A DNA stretch of 64,000 nt from Hydractinia symbiolongicarpus. Taxonomy: Eukaryota; Cnidaria; Hydrozoa; Anthoathecata; Hydractiniidae. Location: contig NC_079881.1 of NCBI RefSeq assembly GCF_029227915.1, positions 18,389,501-18,453,500 of the forward strand. The letters run 5' to 3'. A model generated the notes under the pieces. The model had not been told where the DNA came from, did no database searches, and saw nothing but the letters and a program-made list of their open reading frames with translations. Of this stretch, positions 21,348 to 64,000 are shown one piece after another; position 1 is the stretch's first letter, and each line of letters opens with the position of its first letter. Both the position numbers and the translations under genes were made by a program.

Positions 21348-25500
<4,153 letters not shown>

Positions 25501-28104: not shown

Positions 28105-31100
28105 TTAGAACAACAAACAACATTGATTTTGTATTACTAGCAGCCCAACTCTGGCAACCGCCTCCAGTACTTCTTTGACACCTTGTTGCGTTAATGCCGA
28201 GCATTCTAAATATTTCACAGCTCCTATTTCTTTAGCTAACTGTATTCCCTCTTCTGTTGTAATTGCTTGATTTCGTTCGAAATATTCTTTGTCTGTTCTT
28301 GTGTCAAGTTTTGTACCAACTAAAATGATAGCTGCAGCAGGACTGTGTTGTTTTAATTCCGGATGCCATTTGGTCAACACTTGTGTATACGATTTTCGAT
28401 GCGATAATGAAAAACATACTAGAAACACGTCCTAAACAAATATAAATAAACGAAATGAAAGTATAAAAAGTATGCACCATAGCACTTGTTGAAGTAAATC
28501 TAGAGGTTGGAGCTCTGGGGATGAGAATGGTATAATAAAAGAGAGCTACACGCTTCAGCTAATTGCTACATGCTTTTATGTAGGTATAAACCTTATAAGA
28601 ATACGAGGCTGAGATTTATTCAAAATTTAAGATTCTTCTCCTGCTATTGAAGTGCTAAAATGTAAGAGATCTTCCGATATACAGGCAGCTTCTTTTTGGT
28701 ATGTTTTCACTTCTTTTTGTCATATTTTAAGCTTTATATTGTTAGAATATTGTTAGAATACAAAATTTCCCGAATTAGTTTTCTTTGATGTACCGCTGCT
28801 ATTTCTTAACTTTGTCAAATAAAATGAATGTGATTTTTGAAATCCTCACCTGAAATTGATAAAATGTTAAATCTTTAGATTCTTACAGCAAACAAAAAAA
28901 CTGTTACAACAGTTTTTTTTAATCTTGTACTAATTAACCTCTGCTTGAACTTTGCCAGAAAAAATCAAAAATTAAGAAGACTTTGGCGGTAACATTAACA
29001 CGACCAAAACACCATTTTCACATTCCGGATTAAGTTGAAAATTTATACACATACCAATTCAGTGATGCTGAATATGATCTTAAAGTCAAAACATCAAAAT
29101 TCTAAAATTTCAAAAAAACATGCAATTCGGGAAACGTGTATTATTATTGATTCTTCGCTACGAATTTTAGAAGATAGGTTAATCTGCCGTTATTAGTAAT
29201 TGGTTTGGAGTAAGGACAATTTAAATTTTGACTTTTCAACAAGCTCAGTTATTGTCCCATTCGTTGAATATTATATCAAGATTTATCCAGTCGAGATAAA
29301 GAAATATTTCTCGAGCGGCAGCCGATTTGACTTCATGCTAATTTACAATTGGTTTTGCGTTTATTAGTGATCAATTACATGTTGATTTCTAATCATTCAA
29401 GTATTATTGTCGTTTGTTTTGAACTTAATTACTACACTTGATTGGTTAAGCGTGTCATATAATATACCTGATTGGTTAAGCGTGTTCTAAAATAACTAAG
29501 GGTTACAATATGTTAACATCGACGTAAGCATTTTTCATTTCTAAAAACATACTGAATTCTTCTTGAATACTAGATTTGGCTCGAGTGGATAAATCTTGAT
29601 ATTACACGAATGCAATATCTCCTTTTACTCAATGCAAGGAAATTTAAGGGTTTGCTTAATGGTAGATTTTGCCTGTAGGTAAATCATATTATAGTTATTA
29701 AGAGTTTTGTCCTCTTTACCTACGAATAAAATAAAATAAAAAGCACAAAGAAATTGACTAAATTTAATATCACAAAATAAATCGGTACATAACCCTAGAA
29801 ATTATGCAGCCCCTATTTAATGATACTTAACTTGGTGAAGGCCTTATCGAATATCACAAGTACGACTGAATAATTTTTAATACAGTTGACTCTTCCCAAT
29901 TCGTATTCCTACAGGGAAAAATTTTTGTTCGAATTATAGAGAGATTCGAATTACAGAAAGTCTCTGTAATTCGAACTTTCAGTTTCAGAGATTGAAAATT
30001 CGAATTACAGAGAGAAATTACGTTATTTCAAAATTAGGAAAACATAGTTCAAGTTTTATTTAATCTTTATTTTCATAGTTTACATTGGAGAGACGATCTC
30101 TTTTGAGATACGAGTTGCATCAGCAAGTGCTTTTCTCGACAAATTGAATTTGTCAAAGCCCTGTTTACACTCTAAAATTCGAATAAGGGAGAGAATCGAT
30201 AATTCGAACAGTTTTTCAAACCCTTCAGGTTTGAAAAACTGTTCGAATTATAGAAAGTTTCGAATTAGAGAAATTCGAATTGTAGAAAGTTTTTTATATG
30301 AGTTTCTTTAAGGAAAATTGACGGTGACTGAGAACTCGTTCGAATTATAGAAATATTCGAATTATAGAGATTCGAATTAGAGGGAGTCACCTGTATTCGA
30401 TTCCACATCATTCAATACATGTTTAATTAACAAATGGATGCCTCCGGCAGAGATGTAGAACACTCACAGTTTTAGGATCACAGATGGGTCTACGTAATTC
30501 ATTGTCTTCAGATCCTAAATAATAAATATAATAATAGATAAAAAAAATCAAAAAATTCAGTTTAGGTAAAACAAGAGGTTGCTTCAAAAGCATACCATCG
30601 TCACCAAGTGCTTCCATCACATCAATACTAACAGATTCTTTAATGTCGTCCAATTTCACATCCAATGGATCAATATCACACCTTTAATGATTTCGTAATA
30701 AAAATGTTTAATTTGGGTTTGTAAGAAATAGAACAAAAGTTATGTTGATATTATTCAATTTTCTTAGCAAAATATACAATTTCTTTTGGTTGAAAACAGA
30801 CAAGACCTTATTAGCTTCTTCTGTTGTTATTCAAAGTGAATATATTTCAAACACACAGCTGATAAAAAAAGTTATTTTTTTGAGATTTTTACGCAGTTAC
30901 AGAAAAATGGGTTTAGCGTAATATTTCTCCTATTGGTACTTTTTTCTTTTATATATAATACAAAAAATTTAAAATAGACACTCAATTTTCGGATACTTAC
31001 ACGGCTGGAATGTATCTTGTTCGGAAAGTTTTAGTTACAAATGCGAATAACAACGACGTTTTTCCAACGCCTCTAAAAAAACAAATCCATATGAAAAATA

Positions 31101-31659
31101 AAAAAATATAAGATAACTGGTTTTATCATCAAATCACACAGAGCGATCCATGTTACCCAAATATTTTGTTTCCTAAATAGACACTTTCCGCGTGACGTAG
31201 TTCTTTTGATATCATTTTGAGAACAATTTTGTTTGCGCACTTTTGTGTAGGTTAAAAAACAACACTCTCACAGAGTAAAAATGGCTATTTATGAAAATTT
31301 AAGATTTTTTGGTTAACATAAGATCTAAAAGAAACTGAAAATAAATTTTAACTATATTCTTCTAATTTGTCTTAAAAAATTCACTCGTTGTAAGCGAAAG
31401 TTCTTTCTTTTTTTATGGATTTCTTTAATTACTGTGGTTTGTTGTTTATATTTTCTACCTACAGAAATGCTTGCGCATGTGCAAAAAAAAAAACCCAAAC
31501 TTTTTAACTTTTGTAAACATTGGTAATTTATCTATACCGATGACTATGTCTATACTAAACTTTTTTAGAGATCGATTTGTTTTTTTATCCAAAAAGGCTT
31601 TCGTGGAGTATAATCACTTACGTATCACCAACAGCCACACATGTTATTCGCCTAGGCAT
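28105..31659 (-). CDS. Divergent Rac-like GTPase, paralogue A (intact, P-loop Lys kept)
   Basis: Exons: 31659-31622, 31072-31001, 30681-30596, 30514-30468 and 28431-28105. Phases match the canonical Rac gene exactly; exon 3 is 86 rather than 71 bases. The predicted protein has 189 residues. The P-loop is GDTGVGKTS (residues 11-19) with the nucleotide-binding Lys. The switch II motif WDTAGQED is absent: the corresponding stretch reads VMEALGDDG, then SEDNELRRP. TKLD and ECSAL are kept. The last four residues are CLLF, a possible CAAX box, but the polybasic run is missing. It may bind nucleotide but is not expected to hydrolyse GTP in the usual way; that is an inference. Intron 4 is about 2 kb and contains a MITE. 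No stop or frameshift was found. Confidence 0.85.
28432..30467. other. Intron 4 of paralogue A
   Basis: A 2.0-kb intron holding the inverted-repeat element at 29883-30393. No other exon or gene was recognised. Confidence 0.55.
29883..30393. mobile_element. Non-autonomous DNA transposon, CAG...CTG ends, TA target site
   Basis: The left end CAGTTGACTCTTCC and right end gggagtcacctg are imperfect inverted repeats, flanked by TA on both sides (29881-29882, 30394-30395). The interior is built of repeated ttcgaatta and attcgaat words, with a central hairpin near 30206-30247 (gaacagtttttcaaaccc and its complement). CAG ends with a TA duplication fit a pogo/Tigger-like Tc1-mariner relative. No transposase is encoded. 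Confidence 0.65.
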
Positions 31660-31683
31660 CTTTTGAAAGTAAAACAGTGTTTA

Positions 31684-31732
31684 AAGAAAGTAAAAAGATT
31701 GGAGAAAGTTTCTCCAATCTTTTTACTTTCTT
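31684..31732 (-). repeat. Perfect hairpin in the leader of paralogue A
   Basis: Two 24-base arms, exact reverse complements with a single-base spacer at 31708, contain gtaaaaagattggagaaa and its complement. It lies 25-73 bases upstream of the start codon of paralogue A, so it may be in the 5' untranslated leader. Confidence 0.85.
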
Positions 31733-31804
31733 CAAACTTTACTCAACGTTGAACACATGTTTCTTTGCCTGCCTGAATTCTATAGTCGCGTCCAGCGCAA
31801 GCGC

Positions 31805-31849
31805 TTTTATTGTCCTTCTATAAACAACAACTTAACTTTTGCCGACCTA
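31805..31849 (-). promoter_or_regulatory. Recurrent upstream box of paralogue A
   Basis: The plus strand reads ttttattgtccttctataaa, then caacaacttaacttttgccgaccta, starting about 150 bases before the start codon. Similar boxes occur upstream of paralogues B, C and E. Confidence 0.5.
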
Positions 31850-33180
31850 TGCTTTTATGAGTTTTTTCCTATTGTAAACAATTGTTTATTTAATAGTCAT
31901 TTAATAATTCTTAACAAAACACTAGATAAAAAGTCGATTGCCTCGTTTATATCAATCTTTTTTATAAGGTTTATTACACCAGTTTGCGATTACTTAAATC
32001 TACTACTTAAATCTGTCGAATATCAGATGATTGAATAAAAGCAGTATCCCCTCATTCCGTTTCGTGTTCCGTTTTCTTTTTTATTTACAAATGCTTGCCA
32101 ATGTTTAGCTACAAAAGTTTACGGATTTTTGTACATGCGCAAACATTCTTGTAGGTAAAAAAAACAGGACCACATGAAGCAAAATAGCTATTATTAAGAT
32201 TCATACAGATTGTTGAAAGCACGAGATCCAAAAGGACCTGAAATTAATTTTTTGACCGTTTTCTCTATTTTAAAAAAATATTATTTCAGTAACTTTAGGC
32301 AACCATTTTGCTTTTAAAATGGATGTTACTTGGCTTCTGTTGTCTGTAGTTTATATTTTTTACTCACACAACAGGAATCAGTGTGCATCTTCATTGTTCT
32401 TAACGCACAATCCATAACATTAAGTCGCTCGGAAAGTCAACTTAAATCGCTTGACAAGTTTGACATTTTCTAAAATTCCCTAGTTAGAGATCTCAAGTCG
32501 AGTCTGTCAAAGAAAAAATCAAGCAACTGCTCATACGTTGACATGTTTCAATTAGTTTGGAGAAGATTTCCTAACTTATTATTTTCTTATAAGGATGCAC
32601 AAATTCTAATTCTAAATTAATCCTTCTATTGTTCTAAACAATAGACCTATTGCTATTAACCTGAAATCTCATATTGTTATCCAGCATGTTTTGTAAAAGA
32701 AAAAGCGCGTAGATTCTTCGTCGTAAGCTATGCTACCTTGATCTTTGACATCCGCAAAAATTAATTTCGTGGATGTTGTAAAGGTCTAGTCATCTGCAAA
32801 ATTATTCCTCAAACTGAAGCAAATAATTTGTTTAGCTAAAGTGGCTGATTGTCTGTTGTGTTGACTTAAAAACTAACTTAGAAATAGACTAACAACGACT
32901 TAAAATGCTTGAGTTAATAGACACTGGCCCAAGTTGCAAAATTTAATGTATTAGTTCGTTCAATTCATATAGTCCTGCTCGTCTAAATCTTGTAAAAGTT
33001 GGCAGCTAGCCGCATCTTTAAATCCGAGTATTTCTTTCAGCGTCACCAACACAAAAGAAAACTGATTTTGTTATTGATTCGTTTGTGTTAAGTACGAGAC
33101 ACATTTTAGCAGCATCAACAATTAACGGATGCTATTAGTCAGAGAAAAATTTCAAACGTCTTAATATAATATTACTAATA
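31850..33180. other. Spacer between paralogues A and B
   Basis: AT-rich with no gene recognised. The stretch from about 32560 to 32940 resembles the segment downstream of paralogue C (35210-35510), with shared words such as aagcaaatgatttgtttagc. This marks the duplication unit. Confidence 0.45.
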
Positions 33181-33182
33181 AA

Positions 33183-34795
33183 TTATAACAATGTACATTT
33201 TTTTCTTTGAGTTGGAGTATGAGTTGTTTTCAAAACATGTAACCCAGCTCTAGCCACTTCCTCAAATACTTCATTTACACCTTGTTGCGTCAATGCAGAA
33301 CATTCTAAATACTTCACAGCTCCTATTTTTTTCGCTAGTTCTATCCCTTCTTCTGTTGTAATTATTTTTCTCCCTTCTTTTTCATGTTTCTCAGCATACT
33401 CTTTATCGTCCCGTGTATCAAGTTTTGTACCAACTAACACGATAGCTGCAGTAGGACGATATCTTTTAAGTTCTGGATGCCATTTCGTACGCACGTGTTC
33501 ATATGATGTTTGATCTGATAGTGAAAAACATCAAAAACACATCCTAGATAAAAAAAATTGCTGAAAATATTATTAAAGTTTGAAAGCTATTGCCTTGCAA
33601 TGGTTCTTGTTAAGCTAAATCATAGAGATATATCTATGACTAAATCAAGACATGAAGTAATAACAAAGAATAAATAAGTATTACATTACTTACTGTTTCA
33701 GGATAAATTAGAGGTCTCAATCTTTCTTCGTCCTCTGGAAATTATCAAACATATAATTTTATATGAGGCTACATCTTGTGGTTACATGGCAATAAACTGC
33801 GAGGGTGTTTAACAAACAAATCATACCGAAATGATTAGCAGCTTCCATCAAACCAACACGTGCCGATTCTTCACTGTCTTTTAGTTCCACATCCACCGCG
33901 TAATTATCCATGCTTAAAGGTCGTTGGAAAATTTAGATTAGCTATAGAGTTATGGAATTTTTTAGACATGTTTGGATGAAAGTTTATGAAAAAAAAGTTA
34001 AAAAAATTGTTAAAAACACAACAAAAACAACAATGCTTAAGACTTTTTAATAAGTATCAAAAACTTATCTGTGATACTTAAGGTTATTACTAATTTTCTA
34101 AGATAAGATACTTACATGGAGGGAATATATTCGGTTGGAAACTTTTTATGTAAATATGTTATAAGCAAGGCCGTTCTTCCAACGCATCTAAAAAGACAAA
34201 TACATTTTTACATTTATTTCTGTATTGTGAAATATATAAGAAACAATAATACGAAGCTTTAAAAATAAACCACATGGCCAAAAGTTTAAAAACACTAAAT
34301 CATGCAGTTGTAAATTTTTAATCGCAATAATTTGTGAAGTAACAAATCTGAGTTAAATAAGTTTTTGGAAAGATTACATGGTCAACGCTTTTTTATAAGA
34401 ACGTCTTAAATTTCAGCTAAATGTGCTTATTTTTAACACTCAATTAGCCTCTATATTCTTATGTTCTTGAAAAAATTAGACACATATCCTCAGATTTACA
34501 AATAATGATGAATATTTTTAGGTTTGAAAGTAATATATGGCGATGAATTTCTGTTATTCGAAAAACATACATAATAGTACATAGAAAGATATAACTGTTT
34601 TAAAATTATTCTTCCTTATTCTACACTTTCTTATTATTAACATCCATAAAAAATTTTAGGTGCATACGTTACTAATAATTTCTCACACAAAATCTTAGCC
34701 ACAACGTTCTTATATACTAGGTTCTTATGAAGAAAGAACAGGAGGGTAATTACTTACAAATCCGCAACAACTACACATTTTATGTTGTTGCTCAT
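33183..34795 (-). pseudogene. Divergent Rac-like GTPase, paralogue B (Arg P-loop, one frameshift)
   Basis: Exons: 34795-34758, 34187-34116, 33912-33827, 33734-33694 and 33543-33183. The P-loop is ADLCVGRTA: Gly10 is Ala and the essential Lys is Arg. Switch I is EYIPSI followed by MDNY. Switch II is replaced by VGLMEAANHFGEDEERLRP, so both DTAG and the catalytic Gln are gone. The last exon keeps TKLD, ECSAL and a CTLL CAAX box, and has a KHEKEGRK insertion. Two bases are missing near 33530 compared with the sister copy, right after the DVFL codons, which breaks the frame. Without that lesion the gene would be intact. It is either a young pseudogene or a sequencing error. Confidence 0.75.
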
Positions 34796-34834
34796 CTTTT
34801 TAAGTTCTAACCATTACTTTTCTTTTACACTATA

Positions 34835-34866
34835 AATATAAATATAAATATAAATATAAATATAGT
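34835..34866. repeat. (ATAAAT)n microsatellite
   Basis: About five copies of ataaat/tataaa lie just upstream of paralogue B, next to the AG that precedes its tgtaaaagaaaag leader word. Confidence 0.8.
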
Positions 34867-35012
34867 TAAAACATGTGAATTAATTAATTAATTAGTTTAC
34901 GACTTTGCCCCAACTTGAAAAAGATAATTTTCTGTAAATTAAAGATATTCTAATAATTTTTAAATTATATATATTTTTTTATCACACAACACACGATAGA
35001 CTAATTTTTAAT

Positions 35013-35070
35013 GATTAGATCACCTTTGTTGTTGTCTTATTATTTACAATGGCTAAACTTTTGCTGACCT
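35013..35070 (-). promoter_or_regulatory. Recurrent upstream box of paralogue B
   Basis: The plus strand reads attagatcacctttgttgtt, then gtcttattatttacaatggc and taaacttttgctgacct, starting about 220 bases before the start codon. Confidence 0.5.
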
Positions 35071-35527
35071 TTATTTTCCATATGCTTGTCTAAGCGTAAT
35101 TTTAATAATTTGCAAAGGCTGGCAAAAAGTAACATAATATAACAATTCAAAAAATTCATATATAACTTTTTCTCCTTTTCCTTCCACTACAATGGCCAAT
35201 AGGCAAATTTTTTTTATGATTAGATCAGATTCTTCCTAAAATCCGATATCTATATTGTTATAAAGCATATTTTTACAAAATGAAAAGCGCGCAGGTTCTT
35301 CATCGAAACCTTTATTTCCATGATCTTTAACATCTGCATAAATTAATTCCGCAGATGTTGAAAAAATCTTGTCAATCGCGAAAATATTTTCCTTAAAGTG
35401 AAGCAAATGATTTGTTTAGCTAAAGTGGTTGATGGTCTACTGTGCCAACTTAAAACTAACTTAGAAATGGATTAACAATGACTTGAAATGGTTGAGTTAA
35501 TTGTCTTTTAGGTAATGTTGAGACAAA

Positions 35528-36912
35528 TTATAACAATGTACACTTCTTCTTTGGAGTATGAGTTGTTTTCAAAACAAGTAACCCAGTTCTAGCTACTTCC
35601 TCAAATACTTCATTTACACCTTGTTGCGTCAATGCAGAACATTCTAAATACTTCACAGCTCCTATTTTTTTTGCTAGTTCTATTCCTTCTTCTGTTGTAA
35701 TTATTTTTCTCCCTTCTTTTTCATGTTTCTCAGCATACTCCTTATCGTTTTGTGTATCAAGTTTTGTACCAACTAATATGATAGCTGCGGTAGGACGATA
35801 TCTTTTAAGTTCTGGATGCCATTTTGTACGCACGTGTTCATAAGATGTTCGATCTGATAGTGAAAAACATACCAAAAACACATCTTATATAAAAAAATTG
35901 CTGGAGGTAACAATAAAATTTGAAAGCTGATGCCTTGCCGTAGTTCATGTTAACATGAAATTATAACAAAATATTAATGTATCACATCACTCACTGTTTG
36001 AGGATAAATTAGAGGTCTCAGTCTCTCTTCCTCCTCTGAATATATGAAACATATAATTTTATATAAGGTTACATCTTGGTAGTTACATGGGCAATCGGTT
36101 GCGAGGGTGCTTAACAAGAAAATCATACCAAAATGATTAGCAGCTTCCATCAAACCAACACGTGCCGATTCTCCACTCTCTTTTAGTTCCACATCCACCA
36201 CATAATTATCGAAGCTGAAAGATTATTGTAAAATGGGAAATTTAGATTATAAAGTTATGGAATTTATTAGACATGTTTGGATTTTACCGAAAAAAAAGGT
36301 TAAAAAATTGTTAAAAATTGTTTTAAGATAAAATACCTACACAGTGGGAATATATTCGGTTGGAAACTGTTTAGTTACATACGTTATAAGCAAAGTAGTT
36401 CTTCCAACGTGTCTAGAAAGACAAATATCTTTTTACATTAATTTCTAATATGACACAAAAATACGAACCCTTTCTTTAAAGATTTTTTATAAGAACGCCC
36501 AAAATTGCAGCTAAATGTGCTTATGTGTTTTACACTACATTAGCCTATATATTCTTACCCCCCTATATTCTTATGTTCTTAAAAAAAATTGGAAAATATA
36601 TCGTCATGTTTACAAGTAATGATAAATATTTTTAGGTTTGGTAGTAATATATGGTGATGAAATTCTCTTATTTGAAAAACATACATGACAGTACATAGGA
36701 AGTTATAACTGCTATAAAATAATTTTTCGTTATTCTAGACTTTTTATTATTATTATCCATAAAAATAATTTCGGCAGAATACGTTTCTTATACCTCCTTA
36801 ATTAAGCAAAATCTCAACCCTAAATTTCTTATATACTAGGTTCTTATTATCAAAGGTATACTACTTATACTTACCTATCGGCAACAACTACACATTTTAT
36901 GTCATTGCTCAT
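35528..36912 (-). pseudogene. Divergent Rac-like GTPase, paralogue C (Arg P-loop, last acceptor altered)
   Basis: Exons: 36912-36875, 36412-36341, 36214-36129, 36035-35995 and 35884-35528. The P-loop is ADRHVGRTT (Lys to Arg). Switch I is EYIPTVFDNY with Thr35 kept. Switch II is replaced by VGLMEAANHFGEEEERLRP. TKLD, ECSAL and a CTLL CAAX box are intact, and no exon has a stop. The weak point is the last acceptor: the sister copy has ctag before GATGTG, here it is ataa. Splicing at the nearest AG, one base on, would shift the frame. It is paired with paralogue B as a recent tandem duplicate about 2.2 kb apart. Confidence 0.75.
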
Positions 36913-37128
36913 CTTTTTAAGTTCTAACCTTTACTTTTCATTTAGAATATAAATATAAAGATAATTAAAAGAAGTAAATTGATTAATTAATTAGTTTACA
37001 ACTTTGTCCTAACTTAAAAAAGATGATATCCCGGAAACTAAAAGTATTCTAATATTTTTTAAATCTTATATATATATATACACAACATTTTTATCACACA
37101 ACACACGATAGGCTAATTTTTTAAGGAT

Positions 37129-37183
37129 TAGATCAGCTTTTTTGTTGTCTTATTATTTACAATGGCTAAAACCTTGCTGACCT
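37129..37183 (-). promoter_or_regulatory. Recurrent upstream box of paralogue C
   Basis: The plus strand reads gatcagcttttttgttgtct, then tattatttacaatggctaaa and accttgctgacct, starting about 217 bases before the start codon. Confidence 0.5.
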
Positions 37184-37539
37184 TTATTTTCCAAATGCTT
37201 GTCTAAGCGTAATTTTAAAAATTTGCAAAGACTGGCAAAAAATAACATAATATGGCAATTCAAAAAAGGTGCATATAACTTTTTCTCCTTTTCTACTACT
37301 CTACAGTGACCAATAGGCAAATTTTAATGGTTAAATCAGCTTTTTCCTGTTTTTTCCTTGTTCATTAAGCAAAAAAACATCGTTTTTTATAGTAATTTCT
37401 AAATATTTTGACAGTAAAGAGAATTTCTAAGAGATAAGGACTCACCTTGACAAAAGCTCGGGGTTGAGTATAATACTTATTTCAGAGAAAAAGTATAACC
37501 TTAACAATTTTAATAATAGTCTAAGACCCCACTAAAATA

Positions 37540-37870
37540 GCAAAAGGTCTGAACTTCCTTCTGTCACCTTTAAAAGTTGATTATGCTGATTACATAGTAT
37601 CGTTTAAAAAAAATCATTGTAATGTTAAGAGTATGGAAATGATATCGAAGACGAGGAATTTGCGCCATAACATCATTTTAGAATTATAATACCTCAAGAA
37701 ACCGAAGAATTTGAGCGATGAAGAACTAGAAGCGGTGGTTTCGTTCCATAACCTCGATATTGTCATTTAAAAGTCTCACAAAAGAAATTCGGTTGTACTT
37801 GTAGATAAAGTAGTTTATGTCAACAAAACTGTTGGTAATCTAAGTAACACTCCTAAATAGATTAGAGTTA
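37540..37870 (+). pseudogene. Reverse transcriptase relic, probably Penelope-like
   Basis: Fragments in different frames read GLNFLLSPLKVDYADYIVSF near 37546, then KKPKNLSDEELEAVVSFHN near 37696, DIVI and KRNSVVLVDKVVYVNK. The order (GLNF.P.KVDYADY, then L..EEL.A, then DKGN.VV..DK.Y) resembles the N-terminal region of Penelope-type elements as I recall it. Stops and shifts show decay. The exact family is uncertain. Confidence 0.5.
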
Positions 37871-38259
37871 AAATATGTTTGCCCTTCAACTGCAATTTCA
37901 TATATTAAGTTTTATTCACGTTCCATGCTTCGGTCCACAGCCCGGGAATGTTTAGCAAGTGTCTTTATGACTACTATTTATGTTATATGTACTTATGTAT
38001 GCATTCAAAACACAGGACCGATATTGACAACACTGTATCCAGCACAAAAGTGATTGACCTGCAGGAGCTCAGGAATTTATTCTGAACTTGTTGCTTTATT
38101 TTTATACAGGGACGTCAGCACAAAAAAAAGTACGAAAAAACAATAACACTAATTGATTTTTTGTAACAACACACCACAATGCGTTCATGCTGTAGCATAT
38201 TTGGATAAGTGATAAAATGGTGTAAAAATCAGAGAAGAATTTCACACTTTCAGATTACA

Positions 38260-38590
38260 TTAATGTACACGTTTTGTTTATCGTAGTTGTAGTCAAAACA
38301 CATATTTCAGTTTAAGCAACTTCTTTTATTACTTCTTCGACATCTTGTTGATTTTTAGAAGAACACTACACATATTTTACTGCTTCTATCTCCTTTGCTA
38401 GCTGTATCCCTTTCTTAGTTGTAATTAGTTGATTGCCTTCCTCATATTGCTTATGTATTCTTTATCGTTCCATTTATCACGTTTTGTAACAACTAAAATT
38501 AGTAGATAATTGTATTATATGCGGTGTTTTACAACAATATCGTGAATCCAAGTATCATTTAGGGATAATCTCTTTAACATTGTCGGATAA
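38260..38590 (-). pseudogene. Relic of a Rac-like last exon (paralogue copy)
   Basis: The plus-strand text parallels the last exons of neighbouring copies: atgtacacgttttg at the 3' end, cttcttcgacatcttgttga, tatctcctttgctagctgta, tttatcgttccatttatcac and caactaaaat in the right order. Many indels and stops. No other exons of this copy were found. Confidence 0.75.
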
Positions 38591-39209
38591 CTTATTTAGC
38601 TGAAAATATTACGAGCAGACAGGCGTGTCACGGATTGTTTCGAATTTTGTCATGCATTAAATATTCAAATTAAGTTGAATACACGCTTCTCTAATAAGCA
38701 ACATAAAGTTCTCCAGAAAACGAACAAAATGAGCATGATTATGCGTTCAGATATTTTTGCCCCTTGCATTAAAACAATAATAAATAGTTATTATGTTCTG
38801 ATTTTTTTTAGTTATAAAACAGGGAACTATTTGTTACTGCGAAATTTTAAGAAAAGTACTAATCCAAGGAGGCTTGGAAAGATATTTCTAGGCAATCTCC
38901 ATGCTTTAAAACGCAAATTTTCTACGTTGTCGCGTCACGGAGAATATAATATAAACACGCAACTTTTCAACATAAGTAATTGTTACCCACCTTCCACAGT
39001 TCAAAAACGTGTCGAGACACAAAATATCCAAGAAAAGCCTAAAGGTAAGTAACAGGGCTGAAGAAAGATAGTATTATCATACCCCCCTCCTTCCGAGCAA
39101 AGTGGCATCATTTAGTTTCAACAATACGTTGAACTAACGCTTCAGTATAAATATATAAGACACAAGTAATAGTATATGTCCACAAGTATCAGCTACTTCG
39201 GCTATCATT

Positions 39210-40602
39210 TCAAAACAACACACATCTTTTGATTCTTAGAGTTTTCCTAAAATGCGATGCCACCAGGGCTAGTTCTTCAAATAATTCTTTTACACCTTGT
39301 TGCGTTAATGCCGAACATTCTAAATCTTTCACAGCTTCTATTTCTTTAGCTAATTGTATTCCTTCTTCTACTGTGACCAGCTTATTTTGTTCAATGTATT
39401 CTTTATCGTTTCGTGTATCAAGTTTTGTACCAACTAAAATGATGCTGCATTAGGACGATACGATTTTATTTCTGGCCGCCATTTTGTACGCACGTATTCA
39501 TATGATGTTCGATCTGATAGTGAAAAACATACCAGAACCACATCCTAAATAAAGTTTGACATAGCTGTATATATTCTGCTTAGGCAACTCTCAGAATTTT
39601 AGACCCCATTCTTACTTCACCAGTGGAGAAAAAACAAAACAAAAAATCAGTTGAAGATTTAACAAGGTTATGACACCAAAACAGATGTTACTTCCATATT
39701 TTAACTGTTAGGCTCAATGTTACATTAGCCAGATACTTAAATTTTTATAAGAATATGGTTTATAACAGTAAAGCTGGAATTTAGGATTAAAAACATTAGA
39801 TCTATTGTTTAGAACAATAGAGAAATAAAAATAATAACTAGCATGGTTAGAATTTTGGCATTTTTATAAAAGAAAAGCGTGCACTAACGTCGAGAGGGAA
39901 TTAGTGATTATAACTGTATAACATTCAATGTTGACAAACCGAAAACTTACTAACCATTTAAAACAGCTAAAAATTAAAACACTCATATATAAATGTACTA
40001 AGATAAACAAACAAGGTAACAAGCGACTTGCATGCAAAACCGATCGCCATCTTGAATAAGAGGACTCGTGTAAAGCGCAGACAGGGTAATTTTGACGTTA
40101 TTAAGTTGATTGTCAATAAAATGATCGACATTTTAACAGGGCACTTTTAGAAAAATGAAATGAAAACGGGTGGTAAGCTTTGAAAAACAACAACAAGAAA
40201 TTAATGTTAAAATTAACAATAAAAATTATAGTACTTACTGTTTCGGGGTAAATAAGGTCTTAATCGATCGCGTTCTTCTGTGCCTGAATGATAAATAAAA
40301 AAATAAATCCTGCACAGATTATAAAATAAAAATCTTATGCAGAGTAATAACATACCATTGCCACTAAGCGCATCCATCAAAGCAACAGCAACTGACTTTC
40401 CATCACCTTCATACTTCAAATCCATGGGATGCATATCGAAACTTTGATAATAAAGAAAGGCTATACCTATAATACCTGTTAAAACCATGCATTTATGAAA
40501 TTGAAAAAAGAGCCGATCCAGCATACTTACATGGTAGGGACATATTGAGTTAGAAATTTCTCAGTTACAAACGTCATAAGCAAGGAAGTTCTTCCAACAC
40601 CT
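39210..40602 (-). pseudogene. Divergent Rac-like GTPase, paralogue D (several frameshifts, exon 1 missing)
   Basis: Recognisable exons: 40602-40531 (GVGRTSLLMTF, Lys-to-Arg P-loop), 40441-40356 (FDMHPMDLKYEGDG and MDALSGNG), 40283-40239 (TEERDRLRP, two bases short) and 39544-39210 ([21 protein letters not shown], ends in CVLF). Exon 5 lacks one base at about 39445, just before the TKLD segment. No first exon was found upstream, up to 41.8 kb. The frameshifts and missing start make this a pseudogene. The tail still ends in a CAAX-like CVLF. Confidence 0.8.
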
Positions 40603-40758
40603 CTAGAAATAAAGCGCCGTAATATATACAATTATTTGAATCTTTTTTACGCTACAAAATGTTGGTAGAAACAGTGAGAGATGAATTAAACGGTACGATA
40701 ATAAATCTCGTAGATTATAAAGTATATCTTATTTCAAACAGAATTGTCAGTGACAGTC

Positions 40759-40859
40759 CCCAACTTCGTTCCCAGGGCAATTTTGCCTTGTTGATGAAGT
40801 TGATAACGGTCAAAACGTCATAACGGAAAAGAAGTCACAAGACCCTGGGGACGAGATTT
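40759..40859. mobile_element. MITE of the CCCTGGGGACGAGG family with 8-base target-site duplication
   Basis: The left end caacttcgttcccaggg and right end ccctggggacgagatt are inverted repeats. The element of about 100 bases is flanked by identical TGACAGTC (40751-40758 and 40860-40867). An 8-base duplication fits hAT or P superfamilies. There is no coding capacity. Confidence 0.8.
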
Positions 40860-40911
40860 TGACAGTCTTTATTTTTAAATGGTCATATGTTACAACAAAC
40901 ACACAATCATT

Positions 40912-40958
40912 GCTTATTGTCCTCTTTGAAACAATGACTTAATATTTGCCGACCTAAG
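40912..40958 (-). promoter_or_regulatory. Recurrent upstream box near paralogue D
   Basis: The plus strand reads ctttgaaacaatgacttaat, then atttgccgacctaag. It is a variant of the box before the other paralogues. A second copy lies at 41110-41150 (cattgtcctcctcgaaacaa, tgacttatttttgccgac). Confidence 0.4.
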
Positions 40959-41410
40959 TTGAAACAAGCTTTGCGTAATATTTTTAACTTTTAACAATAC
41001 TTTGGGGTCAATAGATCCTCAAAAATTTAATAAAAGCAAACGTATATATATTCGCATGCCAACATAAATATTGGGTATGACAATAAACTCTGTACATCAT
41101 AAACGCTCAATCATTGTCCTCCTCGAAACAATGACTTATTTTTGCCGACGACTGTTATATTTGCATTTTTAATATAAATTTCCTACACTTGCTGAAGCAC
41201 TCAAGCTGCTTACTGCATGCATATCACCTAATCAAGATTCTGGCGCCTAAGTATAGCTCAGTTGTAATTATATCTAATGGTAATTAACACTCCCCGAAGA
41301 AGAGTGATTTAATAAAGGAGGCTCCTGTGGTCGTTATAAGATCGTTTTTTCCGGCCTCACTTTCAAACATGTCTCATTTGTAGCAACCCTTTTTTATTTA
41401 TATCAGTTTT

Positions 41411-41459
41411 AGTTTAGTTCAGTAACTCCAGAAAGCTTCCGGAGTTACTGAAATAAACT
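41411..41459. repeat. Hairpin, 19-base arms, 11-base loop
   Basis: The arms agttt-agttcagtaactcc (41411-41429) and ggagttactgaaataaact (41441-41459) pair at 18 of 19 positions. It lies about 340 bases downstream of paralogue E. Confidence 0.75.
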
Positions 41460-41802
41460 TTTTTTCGTTTTCAACAAAGTTTTAAATAGTAAACGTGATG
41501 GGAAGCTAAAATCTTTTGTATAACCTTCACATTGTATTATATTGTTTTAGGTCAAAATTTACAAAATTTTAGGTCAAAAGTTACAAAATTAGAAAAACGG
41601 TGTTATTTACAAACAAAGAACGCTGCAAATGATGATAATGGGCAACAGAAACCGTGTTTTGGGCATAGAAAGAATGTTTATTCTGTTTATTATTTTCGCA
41701 TTGTTTAAATTTTGACAACCACTCCTATGGCTAGTATTGTCAATGGAGAACGGAACTAGTAAAGTTAAGGAAGGATCAAATTCGATATTGAATAGCAGAT
41801 GC

Positions 41803-43871
41803 TTATAACAATATACACTGCTTCTTTTTCTTAGCTGTCTCTTTATACCAGGCTCTTGCTACTTCTTTAAATACTTCTTTCACGCATCCTTGCGTTTGAG
41901 ATAAACATTCTAAATATTTCACAGCTCCTATTTCTTTTGCTAATTGTAATCCATCTTCTGTTGTAAAAAGCTGATCCCTGATTAAGTACTCTTTATCAAG
42001 TTTTGTACCAACTAAAATGATAGCTGCAGTAGGACGATGCAATTTAACTTCTGGATGCCATTTTGTACGCACGTGTTCATAGGATTCTCGATTTGATAAC
42101 GAGAAACATATCAAAAACACATCCTAAAAATAATTAATTATACAACAGAGATTGAAAGGACTGAGCAAACATCCAGCTGATCCGTGGTGGTTATGTCAGC
42201 GCTGCAGCAATTTGTAGATGAAATTCACATTTCGAAACGAGTTGAAAACTACCATGTAAATTGACATAAAAGAAAGTGGGCCAATCATAAAAAATGCTTA
42301 CTGTGTTAGGGTAACACATACGCTTTTTTCTATCGTGCTCTTCCGTGCCTAAATTATGATGAAAAAGTTAAGTTAAAAGTTTTAAAGGAATGCATAGATG
42401 AATAAAAACGTATTGTAGTGTTCATACCAGTTCCTCTAAGAGGTTCCATCACATTTATGGTAGCTGTTTGTCCACTCAGCTCCAGCAACACATCGATTGT
42501 ATACTTATCAGAGCTAAAATAAGGAGCTTGTACATGAAAGTCATATTAAAGTGAATTTGTACTCGAAAAAGATATAGACCGGATTGGAAAGGTCCATTGT
42601 GATTTCTACTATCTTTTTCGTTAATAAATATTTTTCAGTTTCGAACCAACCGGAAAGTTAAAATCATTTGTGGCACAGGAAGAGAAAAAAATATAAAAAA
42701 CAAAAATTTTAGCCAATTTAATTAAAGTATTTTTCTTTTTCACTTCCGATTCATTTGGTTCTTAAGTGTAAATTATGCTTTAAAATACCAAAGCATTGCT
42801 GGTGCTACTTCAGACAAATTTCACTAGTTCATGCATACATGGCAACCTATTACAAGTTAATCGAGCCCTCTTACAGCACAGCTTAATAGCGAAAAACAAC
42901 TACATTCTTAGGGAAAAATGATTTGAAACATAAATTATAGTCGTTAGCCCGTGGAAAAATCCACGGGTCCACCCGTCCTTTTTACACCGCATTGCGTGCA
43001 TCTCGCTACTTGCGCAGCTAAGCTACCATTTTGCGTAACAGACAGACAGACGGACAGACGTATACGGGTCATTTAACTGAAACTTTGCTCCTGATTGGTC
43101 TTATTTTAGTGGCAACTCGTCCCTGCAATAGCAGGGCCCGGACGCGTTCTTCGTACATGGGCTAGAGGGCTGTTATTTTATGTGCAGTCAACACGGTTGT
43201 AATTAAACAGACGACGATAGAGAGTTTCTTAGTTATGCGGCATGGTATTGTCAAATCACGAACGAAAATGTATGGGAAACGCGTTGATTTTTTTCTATAA
43301 CAGCGACATTTTTTCAAAATTAGAAAAAAAAAATTTTGGAACTAAATTTGGACCGTAAACATTTTTTTTCGTCACGCCTTTTCTTTATTTGTTTCTAATA
43401 AATTGCACTAACGATTTCTAAAAATACTTACACAGTAGGAATATATCCAATTGAATATTCTGTTGCTGCACATGTCACAAGAAAGGAAAATCTTCCAACA
43501 TATCTGAAACACAGACATTGTTACATAACTATTACTATGCTGTAAAAAACAGTGGAACAGTCATCACCAAACAATAACAAAAAAAATCAACATCAGAGAA
43601 TAAAATATTTTACAACAAGTGACTTGAACTATAGTCGAAATATTAGAAACTACAAAAATTTTGTTTTATTTATGATCTGGCTAACGTGATTTAAATATAA
43701 TTAACTTATTCAGACTGTCTTTTTTACTTTTTCTATTTAAATCGTCATATGGCTCAAAAAGAGTTAAGTAATTATGAACTTTAAAAGGGCATGCCCCTAT
43801 AGGCAATTAAAATAACAACAGAAAACTTACAAATCACCAAGTACGATGCATTTTATTGCGTTTACTACCAT
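41803..43871 (-). CDS. Divergent Rac-like GTPase, paralogue E (intact, Arg P-loop)
   Basis: Exons: 43871-43831, 43503-43432, 42513-42428, 42348-42302 and 42123-41803. All splice sites and phases are good, giving 188 residues without interruption. The P-loop is GDLYVGRFS (residues 12-20): Lys is Arg and the Mg-binding Thr17 is Phe. Switch I keeps GYIPTV. Switch II reads [11 protein letters not shown], then TEEHDRKK, so there is no DTAGQ. TKLD is kept, but a four-residue deletion follows. G5 is rewritten from CSALTQQG to CLSQTQGC. The C-terminus is KKKKQCILL, a strong polybasic CAAX box. Nucleotide cycling is unlikely, while membrane targeting looks intact. This is the best case for a functional pseudo-GTPase. 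Confidence 0.85.
42945..43160. repeat. Dispersed-repeat-like segment with (CAGA)n run
   Basis: In intron 2 of paralogue E: a small hairpin cccgtggaaaaatccacggg near 42958, then a cagacagacagacggacaga run near 43040, then a GC-richer stretch. The contrast with the AT-rich neighbourhood suggests an inserted repeat. The family is not identified. Confidence 0.4.
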
Positions 43872-44872: not shown

Positions 44873-45106
44873 TTAAACTGTGCCAGAAACTGTAGATTGA
44901 TTTAAAGAATCACTTTTAACAACGGCGATGTTCCGTAATACTGTTGAATTATCTGAAGCCATTAAAGGAAAACGTTTGCAACGAAGGTAATGAAGCGCTA
45001 CATCTCTTAGTGGTTTGTTGAAGAAGACGTAAATTAGAGGATCAACAATGAAACCACAGACCAACAAAATTTGAGTAAGAATGCTAAAGTTTTCAGTTTC
45101 TATTAT
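44873..45106 (-). pseudogene. Seven-helix receptor, C-terminal remnant
   Basis: Matches the last ~80 codons of the receptors at 46978 and 58163: FSILTQILLVCGFIVDPLIY, the FFNKPLRD helix 8 and the Ser/Asn-rich tail. Homology stops abruptly at about 45106 within helix 7's lead-in. The following bases (ggggggacacaa) match the far upstream flank of the 58163 copy (near 59375). An internal deletion has therefore removed helices 1-6 and the promoter-proximal region. Confidence 0.85.
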
Positions 45107-45754
45107 GACAACGAAGAAAAGGGGGGACACAATTGGAAAATGAAAAACTGTAAATAAAATAAAAAGCTAAACGCTTAAGATTACATATCCGAAATAAAAT
45201 ATAATTAAGCCTGTAAATATGCATCAAAACTCCTAAAAGCCGCAATATTTATCATTCAATCCCCATTCTTATTGTTAAGAAAGATGAATTAGCAAAAGTA
45301 AACCTTGACATATTTTTAGAATAGAATATTCTTGGTGGAAATTTTATCAGCGAATATTAACTTAAATTTATTCAATTATTCAGAGTTGGTTTACATGTAT
45401 AGTAAAAAAAACTAATTTACGCTAACTATTAAAAAGCAAAAAAAAACTAAAATTATAAAATATTTATAACACATTGTTACTTGTAAATCGAACACTGACA
45501 ATATATTCTTGTGTCTCGTATCAGTGCTTCAATGTTCGTAGAGAACGCAATTTTTTGGACACCGGCAAATGATTCCAAAGATTTTATTGTGAAACATTCC
45601 TGGCACATTTCTTTCACATGCAAGTTAAAACGTTACTTTGAGCATAGTCATAAGAAAAAAAAGATAGTCTAGAGGCAACGACCACCGACATTGTTTGCGC
45701 AACCTATCCTTAAGTTGTGTCGGACGAACCTCCGATACTGCACGGAAGTTAGTA

Positions 45755-46977: not shown

Positions 46978-47883
46978 ATGTATCTAGTGTTTGTTTTGAC
47001 ATTCGTTGCACTGTGTATACACGGGTTGGCAATATTCTGTTTGTGCAAGCACAAGAAACAAAATGTAAACCAGAAAGTATTATTGATAAATGTGAGCGCA
47101 ACAGAAATTTTTATTCTCCTGCTCAAAGCTTGTTACCTTGCCATGCTGATGGCAAAAGACGAAATGCAAACAATAACCGTTCGTTTCGAACATTTATTTA
47201 GCATGATTTCGTTTTACCTGTACACACTTGCAAACTTTTTGTTGCTCTTCGCCATGTTTTTTATCATAGCAGATCGTTTTCTCTGCATTTATTTGCATGT
47301 TAGATATAATTACGTTGTCACGAAAATTCGATTGGTGAAAGTCATAATTGCGGCTTGGATTGTTAGCACGATAATAGGATTACCCTTACTTTTCTTGGAA
47401 GACTTGGAAGGAGAGTATTACGTAATTTTATTAGTTCTAAATGTAGTTTATATTATCATGGCTACAGTGGTTTATGGTATAATTTGTCTCTATTTAAAAA
47501 GACGAAGAAAAACATTCCAAGCAAAATCCAAGATGGAGAAAGTTACAAATTCTAAACAATTTGTCGTACCATTTTTGATCGTGATTACTTTCATCATTTT
47601 TTCATCTCTGCCGAAATGTATCAACGTATGGCTGTTAATAATGAATGGTAAAATAGAAACTATAAACTTTAGCATTCTTACTGAAATTTTGTTAGTCTGT
47701 GGTTTCATTGTTGATCCTCTAATTTACGTCTTCTTCAACAAACCACTAAGAGATATAGCGCTCCATTACCTCCGTTGCAAACGTTTTCCTTTAACGGCAT
47801 CAGATAATTCAATAGTATTACGGAACATCGCCGTTGTTAAAAGTGATTCTTTAAATCAATCTACAACTTTTAGCACGGTGTAA
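46978..47883 (+). CDS. Orphan class A (rhodopsin-like) seven-helix receptor, complete
   Basis: Intronless, 301 residues. Predicted helices: about 1-24, 33-58, 70-100, 119-141, 147-172, 196-220 and 232-254. The DRF at 99-101 stands for the class A DRY motif. DPLIY at 246-250 matches D/NPxxY in helix 7, followed by FFNKPLRD helix 8 and a tail ending SLNQSTTFSTV. Helix 2 has Glu where Asp2.50 is usual (NVSATE). There is almost no extracellular N-terminus and no obvious helix 3-loop 2 disulfide. The start is the first Met, 40 bases after an AG (tttattttag) that may accept a 5' exon or spliced leader. Close paralogues lie at 58163 and 63402. The ligand is unknown. Confidence 0.88.
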   Translation: MYLVFVLTFVALCIHGLAIFCLCKHKKQNVNQKVLLINVSATEIFILLLKACYLAMLMAKDEMQTITVRFEHLFSMISFYLYTLANFLLLFAMFFIIADRFLCIYLHVRYNYVVTKIRLVKVIIAAWIVSTIIGLPLLFLEDLEGEYYVILLVLNVVYIIMATVVYGIICLYLKRRRKTFQAKSKMEKVTNSKQFVVPFLIVITFIIFSSLPKCINVWLLIMNGKIETINFSILTEILLVCGFIVDPLIYVFFNKPLRDIALHYLRCKRFPLTASDNSIVLRNIAVVKSDSLNQSTTFSTV

Positions 47884-54769: not shown

Positions 54770-56285
54770 TACTAACAGAGACTTATGAGACTATTTGTTG
54801 TGTTGTATTAAAATTTGATCACTGAAAGAATCTTTTGTATCATAAAAGTAGAGTGCCTTTGACCAACTCAACGACCACTCTCGTAAGTTCCGCAACGATA
54901 CTTTAAATTTTGCGGTTCCAGCCTAGATGGAAATTTCACAGGTATAATTTCCATAAGTAAAAATAAGCAGTGTCATCATGGCCTTTTTGGGATGAAATAC
55001 CAAACACTATTCAAGAAAAAAACATTTTTCCGAACCCGTGAAATGTAAAATAAGGCATTATTCGCGAAAATTTATAACTGTGAAAGTTAAAACTTGTCAG
55101 GTAGACAATTCTTACGCAGTTCTGGGGTTTGAATATTTCGCACTGGAAAAATCTCGCGTATGATAAACGCATATACATTCAGAATTTCTTGTACTGCCAG
55201 CTGGTGGTCGCCTACCCACGTGTTTTACACTGCACTAGTATATATAATATAACTTGTGCATCACATGGCATTGATTTATCATTTATTTTTTTAATAAATT
55301 TCCTTTTCAAATCAAAGAGGCGAAGAAAAGTGGGGACAATAATTAAACAACCTGGTTCTCATGCAGTTTATGGTAAATTTGTGTATTCTTGTTTCTTATT
55401 TTTAAAACGTACTTTCTTTTTCAGATCAGCTGTTATCAAACCATGCGCCATTAGCATTTTCAAAAAATGTTCAACAAGAAAGTAAATTTTGAAGGCCTAA
55501 ATACTGAGAAATACTGAGAATGCTAATATGTATTTATTGCAGAATTAATTAAGAATGAACTACTTCATCATTCAAATTTAGCTCGTTCAGAAATTTGATA
55601 TTGGAATCGTCAAGTTTAGTTTTCAGAATTTTCCTGATCAGTTTTAAAAGTATCCAGTTAAAGTTTTAACTGTTATTTTAGAATACTTCATATAGCTACG
55701 TAAAAATTATTTATTTATTTATTGAGTTGTATTTTAACATTGCAGATTAGTTACAATAATAATTGAGAATACTCAATGATTTTTGTTTGCCCCATAATTC
55801 TCCATTTTCAAGGTCTACTTCAAATTTTAAGATCTTTTAGGCTAATGGCGGAAATCTTCAAGCCGCAGAGCTTCTTGTTTATATTCACAAATCTTCTGAC
55901 ATTTGACATCGAGCGACTTGCGACCAGCAACTGGATTAAAAACTTTTTCAGTCTCCACAGCCAAATGTGGATTGCATCTTTTGCGCGTATTTTCCAAGAA
56001 AAAAAACCGTGAAGCTGGTCACTTTACAGTTGTCGATTCCTGTCTGTTATTCCCCACGTTAACATAACCGAGAAAGTTACGTGTTATATTGTAGTGCAGA
56101 ATCCGAAAAGAAACTTATCGCAGAACGTCGGAAACAGCGCTTAGATCAGCTTTTTCCTGTATTTTTTTGCTCATTAAGCGAAAAAAACACATTTATTTAT
56201 AGAACATTCTAAATTTTGACCGTAAATAGAATTTCTAAAAAATAAGGACTCGCCTTGAAATAACCCCTCTAAAGTTAAGTGATAC
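54770..56285. other. Stretch after the Helitron, nothing recognised
   Basis: Open frames at 55129-55485 and 55776-56012 have no recognisable domain. From about 56145 the sequence matches 37340-37450 (ctttttcctgt, gctcattaagcgaaaaaaac, aataaggactcgcc), a segment duplicated within the Rac-like array. Confidence 0.45.
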
Positions 56286-56326
56286 AAATCACCAAGTATC
56301 ATGCATTTCATTGCTTTTGCTACCAT
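56286..56326 (-). pseudogene. Isolated first exon of a Rac-like gene
   Basis: The minus strand reads MVAKAMKCMILGDF, matching exon 1 of paralogue E (43871-43831) in length (41 bases) and flanks. The donor is gtatca rather than gtaagt and no exon 2 follows. The similarity continues upstream to about 57.1 kb, so this is the edge of a segmental duplication. Confidence 0.8.
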
Positions 56327-58162: not shown

Positions 58163-59068
58163 TTACGCCATACTAGAAGGTGTAGATTGATTTAAAGAAT
58201 CACTTTTAACAACGGCGATGTTCCGTAATACTATTGAATTATCTGATGCCGTTAAAGGAAAACGTTTGCAACGGAGGTAATAAAGCGCTACATCTCTTAG
58301 CGGCTTGTTGAAAAAAACGTAAATTAGAGGATCAACAATGAAACCACAGACCAACAAAATTTGAGTAAGAATGCTAAAGTTTATAGTTTCTATTTTACCA
58401 TTCATTATTGACAGCCATACGTTGATACATTTCGGCAGAGATGAAAAAATGATGAAAGTGATCACGATCAAAAATGGTACAACAAATTGTTTAGAATTTG
58501 TAACTTTCTCCATCTTGGATTTTGCTTGGAATCTTTTTCTTTGTCTTTTTAAATAGAGACAAATTATACCATAAACCACTGTAGCCATGATAATATAAAC
58601 AACATTTAGAACTAATAAAGTTACGTAATACTCTCCTTCCAAGTCTTCCAAGAAAAGTAAGGGTAATCCTATTATCGTGCTAACAATCCAAGCCGCAATT
58701 ATGACTTTCATCAATCGAATTTTTGTTACAACGTAACTATATCTGACGTGCAAATGAATGCAAAGAAAACGATCTACTATAATTAGAAACATGGCAAAAA
58801 GCAACAAAAAGTTTGCGAGTATGTACAGGTAAAACGAAATCATGCTAAATAAATGTGCGAAACGAACGGTTATTGTTTGCATTTCATACATTGCCATCGC
58901 CATAGCAAGGTTACAAGCTTTGAGCAGGAGAATAAAAATTTCTGTTGCGCTCACATTTATCAATAATACTTTCTGGGTTTTATTTTGTTTCTTGTGCTTG
59001 CACAAACAGAATATTGCCAACCCATGTAAACACAGTGCAACGAATGTCAAACCAAACACTAGATACAT
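58163..59068 (-). CDS. Orphan class A seven-helix receptor, complete, close paralogue
   Basis: Intronless, 301 residues, and nearly identical to the receptor at 46978 over all seven helices. It keeps the DRF at helix 3, DPLIYVFFNKPLRD at helix 7-8, Glu in helix 2 and the same tail up to SLNQST. Changes cluster in loop 1, helix 3 and the extreme C-terminus (PSSMA). The 5' flank is also shared, but the AG before the start in the plus-strand copy (tttattttagacgatc) is aa here (tttttaacgatc). Any leader splicing at that site would be lost. The frame is open throughout. Confidence 0.88.
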   Translation of the reverse strand: MYLVFGLTFVALCLHGLAIFCLCKHKKQNKTQKVLLINVSATEIFILLLKACNLAMAMAMYEMQTITVRFAHLFSMISFYLYILANFLLLFAMFLIIVDRFLCIHLHVRYSYVVTKIRLMKVIIAAWIVSTIIGLPLLFLEDLEGEYYVTLLVLNVVYIIMATVVYGIICLYLKRQRKRFQAKSKMEKVTNSKQFVVPFLIVITFIIFSSLPKCINVWLSIMNGKIETINFSILTQILLVCGFIVDPLIYVFFNKPLRDVALYYLRCKRFPLTASDNSIVLRNIAVVKSDSLNQSTPSSMA

Positions 59069-61494: not shown

Positions 61495-62281
61495 TTCTAT
61501 GATTTTTGATCTGACAGTGAAAAACACACCAAAACAACGTCCTAAATAATAATGGTAATGAAATGAAGATACATTAAGAAAACAATGTAAGGAGAGCAAC
61601 ATTACATACCATAAATACATCCACAGTAACCAATCCATATAAACTGGTTCTTCTTACCTAGAAGGTTAGGCTGACACCCACGTAGCAGCCTTTACAATAC
61701 AATATTAACATCCCAAATAATAATGGGTATGAAATGAAGATACATTACCTAAAAGGCTGAGATAATAAACGCAAGCTATACAATATAATACTAATGGTCT
61801 ATTCAATGCTCTGACATTCTCGTACTTCTTGTTACAGGGATTCCTACGCATACCTCGCCAACATTAAAACCTTTGTTAATTCAAAAATTATTCATACTGC
61901 GAATTATTAAACTAATAGACTCTAAGAAGTTATCCACATGCATACTAATAGACTCTAAGAAGTTATCCACATGCATACTTGCCCTTTCATAGTTGTGGCA
62001 AATCTAAGAGGTTCAGGTAACCCATCTTAATCCAGGAAGGTAATGCGACAGTTACTTAATTGTGGTAGAAAACATAATACTTACTGTTTAGGATGACACA
62101 GCGGTCTCAAACTATTATGTTCTTCTGTGCCTAAATTAGTTAAAATAGGTTAAATTTGACAGCTTAATGGCGAGCATCTTCCATTAGAAACATACCATTG
62201 TCTCGAAGAGTTATTGATAAGACAATAGTGACTGCTTGCTCGTCGTCTTCCATGTCTACATCTTAATAGTACATATCAAAG
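61495..62281 (-). pseudogene. Rac-like GTPase relic, paralogue F (exons 3, 4 and start of 5)
   Basis: Exon 3 (62281-62196, 86 bases) reads FDMYY, then a stop, then DVDMEDDEQAVTI. Exon 4 (62130-62085) reads TEEHNSLRPLCHPK and is one base short of the 47 in functional copies. Exon 5 begins at 61541 with DVVLVCFSLSDQKS and ends within about 50 bases. Exons 1 and 2 were not found. It is clearly dead and most like paralogues D and E. Confidence 0.8.
61900..61980. repeat. Short tandem duplication, ~36 bases x2
   Basis: The word actaatagactctaagaagt followed by tatccacatgcat occurs twice in succession at 61912-61978. Confidence 0.85.
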
Positions 62282-63401: not shown

Positions 63402-64000
63402 TTACGCCACACTAGAAGGTGTAGATTGATTTAAAGAATCACTTTTAACAACAGCGATGTTCCGTAATACTGTTAAATTATCCGAAGCCATTAAAGGAAA
63501 ACGTTTGCAACGGAGGTAATGGAGCGCTACATCTCTTAGTGGTTTATTGAAGAAAACGTAAATCAGAGGATCAACAATGAAACCACAGATCAACAAAATT
63601 TCAATAAGAATGCCAAACGTGACAGTTTCTGTTTGACCATCCATCACTAACAGCCATAGGTTAATAGATCTCGGCAGAGATGAAAAAATGATGAAAGTAA
63701 TCACGATCAAAAATGGTACGACAAATTGTTTAGAATTTGTAACTTTCTCCATCTTGGATTTTGCTTGGAATGTTTTTCTTCGTCTTTTTAAATAGAGACA
63801 AATTATACCATAAACCACTGTAGCCATGATAATATAAACTACATTTAGAACTATCAAAATTATGAAATACTCTATATGAAAGTCCAAAAAAAGTAAGGGT
63901 AATCCTATTATCGTGCTAACAATCCAAGCTGCAATTATGACTTTCATCAATCGAATTTTCGTGACAACGTAATTATATCTGACGTGCAAAGGAATGCAAA
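63402..64000 (-). CDS. Orphan class A seven-helix receptor, cut by the right edge
   Basis: Open from the window edge (end of helix 3) to the stop at 63402. It has CIPLHVRYNYVVTKIRL after the DRF position, helices 4-7, DPLIYVFFNKPLRD and a tail ending SLNQSTPSSVA. It differs from the two complete copies in loop 2 (LDFHIEYFIIL instead of EDLEGEYYV, shortened) and around helix 6-7 (MDGQTETVTFGI), the parts expected to face a ligand. The first ~105 residues lie outside the window. Confidence 0.85.
   Translation of the reverse strand, partial: CIPLHVRYNYVVTKIRLMKVIIAAWIVSTIIGLPLLFLDFHIEYFIILIVLNVVYIIMATVVYGIICLYLKRRRKTFQAKSKMEKVTNSKQFVVPFLIVITFIIFSSLPRSINLWLLVMDGQTETVTFGILIEILLICGFIVDPLIYVFFNKPLRDVALHYLRCKRFPLMASDNLTVLRNIAVVKSDSLNQSTPSSVA

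Follow-up and report, generated by a model that had tools for sequence, protein, structure and literature searches.

Relatively few pseudo-GTPases have been described so far (PMC5593906). The pG1 and pG2 domains of p190RhoGAP, assigned there to class i, combine a Ras-like fold with five degraded G motifs, are predicted not to bind nucleotide and form part of a large protein. Within the Rho family, Rnd and RhoH are described as having no Gly at position 12 and a degraded switch II, and the Rnd proteins as holding GTP (PMC13236570). Among invertebrate Racs, oyster CgRac-2 has diverged and lost nucleotide loops, and is reported to be without G1–G3 altogether (PMC4669188). In human Rac1, the K16R change is reported to inhibit GTP binding (a loss deduced there from pull-down and modelling, the nucleotide itself being unmeasured), and the mutant protein to be inactive even in combination with Q61L (PMC8274835).

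A row of Rac-derived tandem copies is found on chromosome C7 of the hydrozoan Hydractinia symbiolongicarpus, where it adjoins a normal five-exon Rac gene, all on the minus strand. The window analysed is a stretch of 64,000 nt (NC_079881.1, positions 18,389,501 to 18,453,500), and coordinates are those of the window, also for features beyond its end. The copies resemble Rac1 in descent, five-exon layout, Rho insert region, CAAX tail and fold, and copy I shares 55% identity with Hydra Rac. Unlike Rac1, they replace Gly12, Trp56, Gln61 and (except in copy A) Lys16, carry an insertion in exon 3 and, in A, D, E and H, have a shorter insert region. Rnd and RhoH keep the P-loop Lys, whereas most array copies do not, and unlike the p190RhoGAP domains the array proteins are free-standing, CAAX-tailed and mostly retain TKLD. 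Neither an array nor a common Arg is described in the report on the oyster protein.

The canonical Rac gene lies at 21348..25500 (minus strand; exons 25500-25466, 23133-23062, 22418-22348, 22019-21973 and 21701-21348) and has the P-loop VGK. A second possible last exon of this gene, at 19046-18693 (minus strand), is carried by a database protein named isoform X1 (P0199), so that alternative terminal exons look likely. The copies sit upstream of the canonical gene, at higher coordinates, and the array ends at about 85.6 kb, about 21 kb beyond the window. They were located by adding flanks to the window and applying tblastn with exon peptides together with a scan for exon 1. The P-loop exon is kept in nine copies (A, B, C, D, E, G, H, I and J), and at least five fragments from further copies were found at about 38.3, 56.3, 61.5–62.3, 71.6 and 83.7 kb. 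These include an exon 5 remnant with in-frame stops (38258..38502), a lone E-like exon 1 (56285..56326) and a remnant of exons 3–5, designated F (61500..62280), all on the minus strand. An earlier note on this DNA had placed copies A to E at 28105..43871, and these limits are exact: on the minus strand, the stop codon of A is at 28105 and the ATG of E at 43871. Past that span lie G, H, I and J, four more copies in which the P-loop exon is kept, all reading VGR.

Receptor-like multi-pass open frames, judged by eye, also occur among the Rac copies, at 46978-47883 (plus strand) and at 58163-59068, 63402-63989 and 44873-45130 (minus strand). Two are 301 aa long, one is 195 aa long at the window edge and one is a short piece. 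Two of these frames form a 266-nt inverted repeat (91% complementary), which suggests block duplication.

Four copies (A, E, H and I) are open across five exons, with GT and AG at every junction; two of the splice sites look weak, namely the acceptor of exon 3 in A and the donor of exon 1 in H. Copy A occupies 28105..31659 (minus strand; exons 31659-31622, 31072-31001, 30681-30596, 30514-30468 and 28431-28105) and has the P-loop GDTGVGKT. Copy E occupies 41803..43871 (minus strand; exons 43871-43831, 43503-43432, 42513-42428, 42348-42302 and 42123-41803), with the P-loop GDLYVGRF and the CAAX tail CILL. It is fully open, as had been proposed, and its 188 residues are identical to RefSeq protein P0121. 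Copies H (75624-71907, L009-L010) and I (81524-78357, L010) lie outside the window on the minus strand, as do the broken copies G (70665-68271, within L009) and J (about 85627-84377, L011). The spliced model of I is identical across 199 residues to RefSeq protein P0001. Copy H matches a RefSeq protein whose end differs from the genomic reading frame and drops the CAAX; that protein is named isoform X2, implying more than one annotated splice form. For copy A, no RefSeq protein was seen among the matches listed (the best 120 of 7913, 1455 and 5307).

The remaining five of the nine that keep a P-loop exon are broken. Copy B (33183..34795, minus strand, VGR) has a 2-nt deletion in exon 5. Copy C (35528..36912, minus strand, VGR) has AA for AG before exon 5, and the nearest AG is one base further on, which shifts the frame; C was considered as an intact VGR gene and rejected because of this lost acceptor. 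In copy D (39210..40602, minus strand, VGR), exon 5 carries a 1-nt deletion, exon 4 is two bases short, and exon 1 was not found by the exon 1 scan or exon-by-exon reading. In copy G, CT stands in place of GT behind exon 3 and exon 5 contains a stop; copy J is decayed. The five-exon layout seen in the earlier note is confirmed and is common with Rac, while the broken state of five copies is not mentioned there. The array thus holds both dead and intact copies.

A rival view of the locus is a cluster of relaxed Rac duplicates that is decaying, in which the open copies have merely not been hit so far. The five broken copies, the fragments lying among them and the missing RefSeq match for A agree with it, while the existence of RefSeq models for E, H and I speaks against it. 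It is taken up again below with the substitution rates.

The canonical G1 motif GxxxxGK[ST] is present in A only; the remaining eight copies (B–E and G–J) read VGR at the same place. The Arg codon is AGA, as the earlier note had seen in B, C, D and E, except for AGG in H; Lys is encoded by AAG in the local Rac and by AAA in copy A. Across the seven VGR copies that were aligned, 12 of 79 scored columns in exons 1–4 and 44 of 108 in exon 5 are invariant, and Arg16 is the sole one of those 12 columns that differs from Rac. Three protein searches gave 212 listed homologues (from the best 120 of 7913, 1455 and 5307 matches), among which residue 16 is Lys in 205, Arg in three, Leu in one and Asp in one (a misaligned row), with a gap in two. 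All three Arg sequences (P0001, P0017 and P0121) belong to the array, and no Arg16 relative from outside it occurs among the 212; since the lists hold the best 120 of thousands of matches, rarer cases are possible further down.

Protein I matches 51 places in the genome, and the array-like ones are on C7; none was found in seven fetched regions with matches on other chromosomes. These regions hold Rac/Cdc42-like and Rho-like genes, which have the P-loop Lys wherever the P-loop exon aligned, save one divergent Rho-like gene with Val. This open frame (GDKNSGVSS; 1025-465, minus strand, in L020, C6:10784501-10786500) is possibly another pseudo-GTPase of the H. symbiolongicarpus genome, judging from its P-loop. 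A Rac/Cdc42-like gene in L014-L015 (C4:13550001-13570000) has TQVD for TKLD, and about 12 kb from it lies a partial second copy that is more diverged. Among the listed homologues, the Rac-like protein P0004 of the mussel Dreissena polymorpha has Leu for the P-loop Lys (GDGAVGLT) and an intact WDTAGQ, possibly an independent loss. A literature search of titles and abstract openings found no mention of the array, and the words 'GTPase' and 'Rac1' are absent from the main text of the Hydractinia genome paper (PMC11067881) and the cell atlas (PMC11876637).

The Rac ancestry of the copies is clear. The Ras-family profile PF00071 (cut-off 21.6 bits) gives 123.6 bits for I, 91.5 for E and 108.3 for A, the closest listed sequences to the array copies are Racs, and in a tree with 11 Racs the eight alignable copies group as a single clade with support of 100/100. 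The proposal of a lineage-specific, Rac-derived, CAAX-tailed set is supported. Within the array clade only B, C and I are resolved. It had also been argued that the Lys-to-Arg change was one ancestral event. When residue 16 is masked, two changes are required on the free tree, but forcing the seven Arg copies together costs 3.22 log-likelihood units (AU p 0.367) and is not rejected, so a single change behind these seven copies is allowed though not favoured by the free tree.

Eight copies (A, B, C, D, E, G, H and I) were aligned and scored in Rac numbering, J being omitted as incomplete. At position 12, copies A, B, C, E, G, H and I have T, L, R, L, T, R and I, respectively, so that Gly is found in none of the seven with exon 1. 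Trp56 and Gln61 are lost in all eight copies, and Asp57, the Mg2+ residue, is Glu in seven. The canonical G3 (DxxG with Gln61) is therefore absent, in an alignment that is uncertain near the exon 3 insertion; exon 3 is 86 nt in all eight models and 71 nt in Rac, a common 15-nt insertion. Thr17 is replaced only in E, by Phe. Canonical G4 (TKxD) and G5 (SA) are present: TKLD is kept in seven of the eight (G reads TKRN), including A to E as had been noted, where in E it adjoins a 4-residue deletion, and CSAL in six (not E and G). The CAAX Cys, also claimed before, is kept in all eight. Copies A, D, E and H have an insert region shortened by five residues. Copy I keeps all of switch I (ITVFDY) and, with residues read from the alignment, five of six positions that we take to be GEF contacts, while A, E and H have lost many of the positions that are presumably Rac partner contacts.

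These losses could be read in another way, as those of an atypical Rac resembling Rnd or RhoH that is bound to GTP and always on. Loss of Gly12 and Gln61 would stop hydrolysis, Arg16 would hold the phosphate, and the proteins would stay on. The uniform loss of both residues fits this scheme, as does the retention of TKLD and CSAL in H and I, and an escape from cycling is described for Rho proteins that have no Gly at 12 (PMC13236570). We nevertheless consider it improbable, given that K16R is reported to deprive human Rac1 of activity even with Q61L (PMC8274835), and that Glu replaces the Mg2+ residue Asp57 in seven of the eight copies and Phe replaces Thr17 in E.

Selection was estimated under a GY+F3X4 codon model, with kappa held in the comparisons with an omega of 1. 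For A, E, H and I, omega was 0.235 (2dlnL 109.8 against omega 1), with 0.222 in exons 1–4 and 0.177 in exon 5; for all eight copies the values were 0.244, 0.271 and 0.177. Every subset tested gave an omega of 0.18–0.31, and an omega of 1 was rejected in nine of nine tests (2dlnL 41.3–194.6), these being whole-tree averages that include branches before the loss of Lys, with small numbers on recent branches. Neutral change, with dN/dS near 1, had been named in advance as one of the outcomes that would refute the proposal, and it was not observed. Pairwise NG86 dN/dS between copies was 0.13–0.49 in exon 5 and 0.24–0.78 in exons 1–4, figures that are rough because several dS values are large; by the codon-model omegas the two halves differ less than in the pairwise counts. 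In the young group of B, C and I, private synonymous and nonsynonymous changes number 8 and 3 in I, 7 and 13 in B and 7 and 7 in C (small numbers).

A pseudogene cluster would combine broken frames with a dN/dS near 1, whereas here five of nine copies are broken and the four open ones have an omega of 0.235. Pairwise values of up to 0.78 in exons 1–4 agree with a decaying cluster, but the low omega in all subsets tested, and the excess of synonymous over nonsynonymous private changes in the open copy I, make that account less probable. The most economical account is a lineage-restricted family of pseudo-GTPases undergoing birth and death, in which selection has maintained the open members over most of the time they have existed. 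On a further reading, the copies would be rapidly evolving baits for Rac-modifying bacterial toxins or effectors. Tandem birth and death agrees with it, as do the variable switch positions next to an exon 5 half with a larger share of invariant columns, but omega is well below 1 in both halves and we regard this reading as highly improbable.

AlphaFold2 predicts a Rac-like fold for copy I (pLDDT 89.1) and for copy E (pLDDT 78.9), the latter with block means of 53–61 at residues 21–40 and 55–56 at residues 61–80. The best Foldseek matches of both are Rac structures. The top two for copy I are Rac–RhoGDI complexes, a weak hint because nearly all listed matches are Rac. The NCBIfam small_GTP cut-off is passed by I and H and failed by E.

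The earlier note held that loss of the P-loop Lys normally abolishes nucleotide binding. The report on human Rac1 K16R speaks of inhibition (PMC8274835), and to that extent the VGR P-loop likely cannot hold GTP. Taking this one mutant as the single point of reference, the VGR proteins would be without nucleotide and would fall into class i of the pseudo-GTPases (PMC5593906). We tentatively favour a reading of the array as a lineage-restricted birth-and-death family of prenylated Rac-fold pseudo-GTPases, in which the VGR members bind GTP poorly or not at all and have the role of an inert Rac. A Rac copy would have been duplicated beside its parent in the Hydractinia lineage, gained the 15-nt insertion in exon 3 and lost Gly12 and the switch II signature WDTAGQ; most copies would then have changed Lys16 to Arg, and birth and death would have multiplied them into the four open and five broken copies now present. 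The VGR proteins, presumably expressed, would keep the Rac fold, the prenylation tail and mostly the guanine-base motif TKLD, and would not cycle. Anchored at the membrane, such an inert Rac could occupy RhoGDI, GEFs or Rac membrane sites, and would thus act as a built-in dominant negative.

The members are probably inert Rac mimics, and the role fits copy I best. The loss of many partner contacts in E and H fits a decoy poorly, and the switches of both have drifted so far that a different role, perhaps one that depends on the tail and the part encoded by exon 5, is equally likely. Counting against the favoured explanation are copy A, which keeps Lys and has no RefSeq protein among the matches listed, and the decay of half of the array. 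A bolder version, which we think unlikely, is that Arg16 is a newly fixed functional residue and the array a novel class of Rac-fold proteins, prenylated and independent of nucleotide, which would be natural dominant-negative Racs that arose and radiated in a single hydrozoan lineage. Among the derived positions of exons 1–4, Arg16 alone is common to all aligned VGR copies, with residues 12 and 13 and switch II drifting, and on that version it would not be mere damage.

A P-loop change that cripples human Rac is found in most of the copies, several of which remain intact under selection, so these may be dead switches kept for another job. The array would be a natural counterpart of the laboratory loss-of-function change in Rac1. 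It is a young tandem family whose living parent lies next to it, and dead, open and Lys-keeping members occur together in it. In a laboratory animal, the step from switch to non-switch can therefore be dated and examined one residue at a time.
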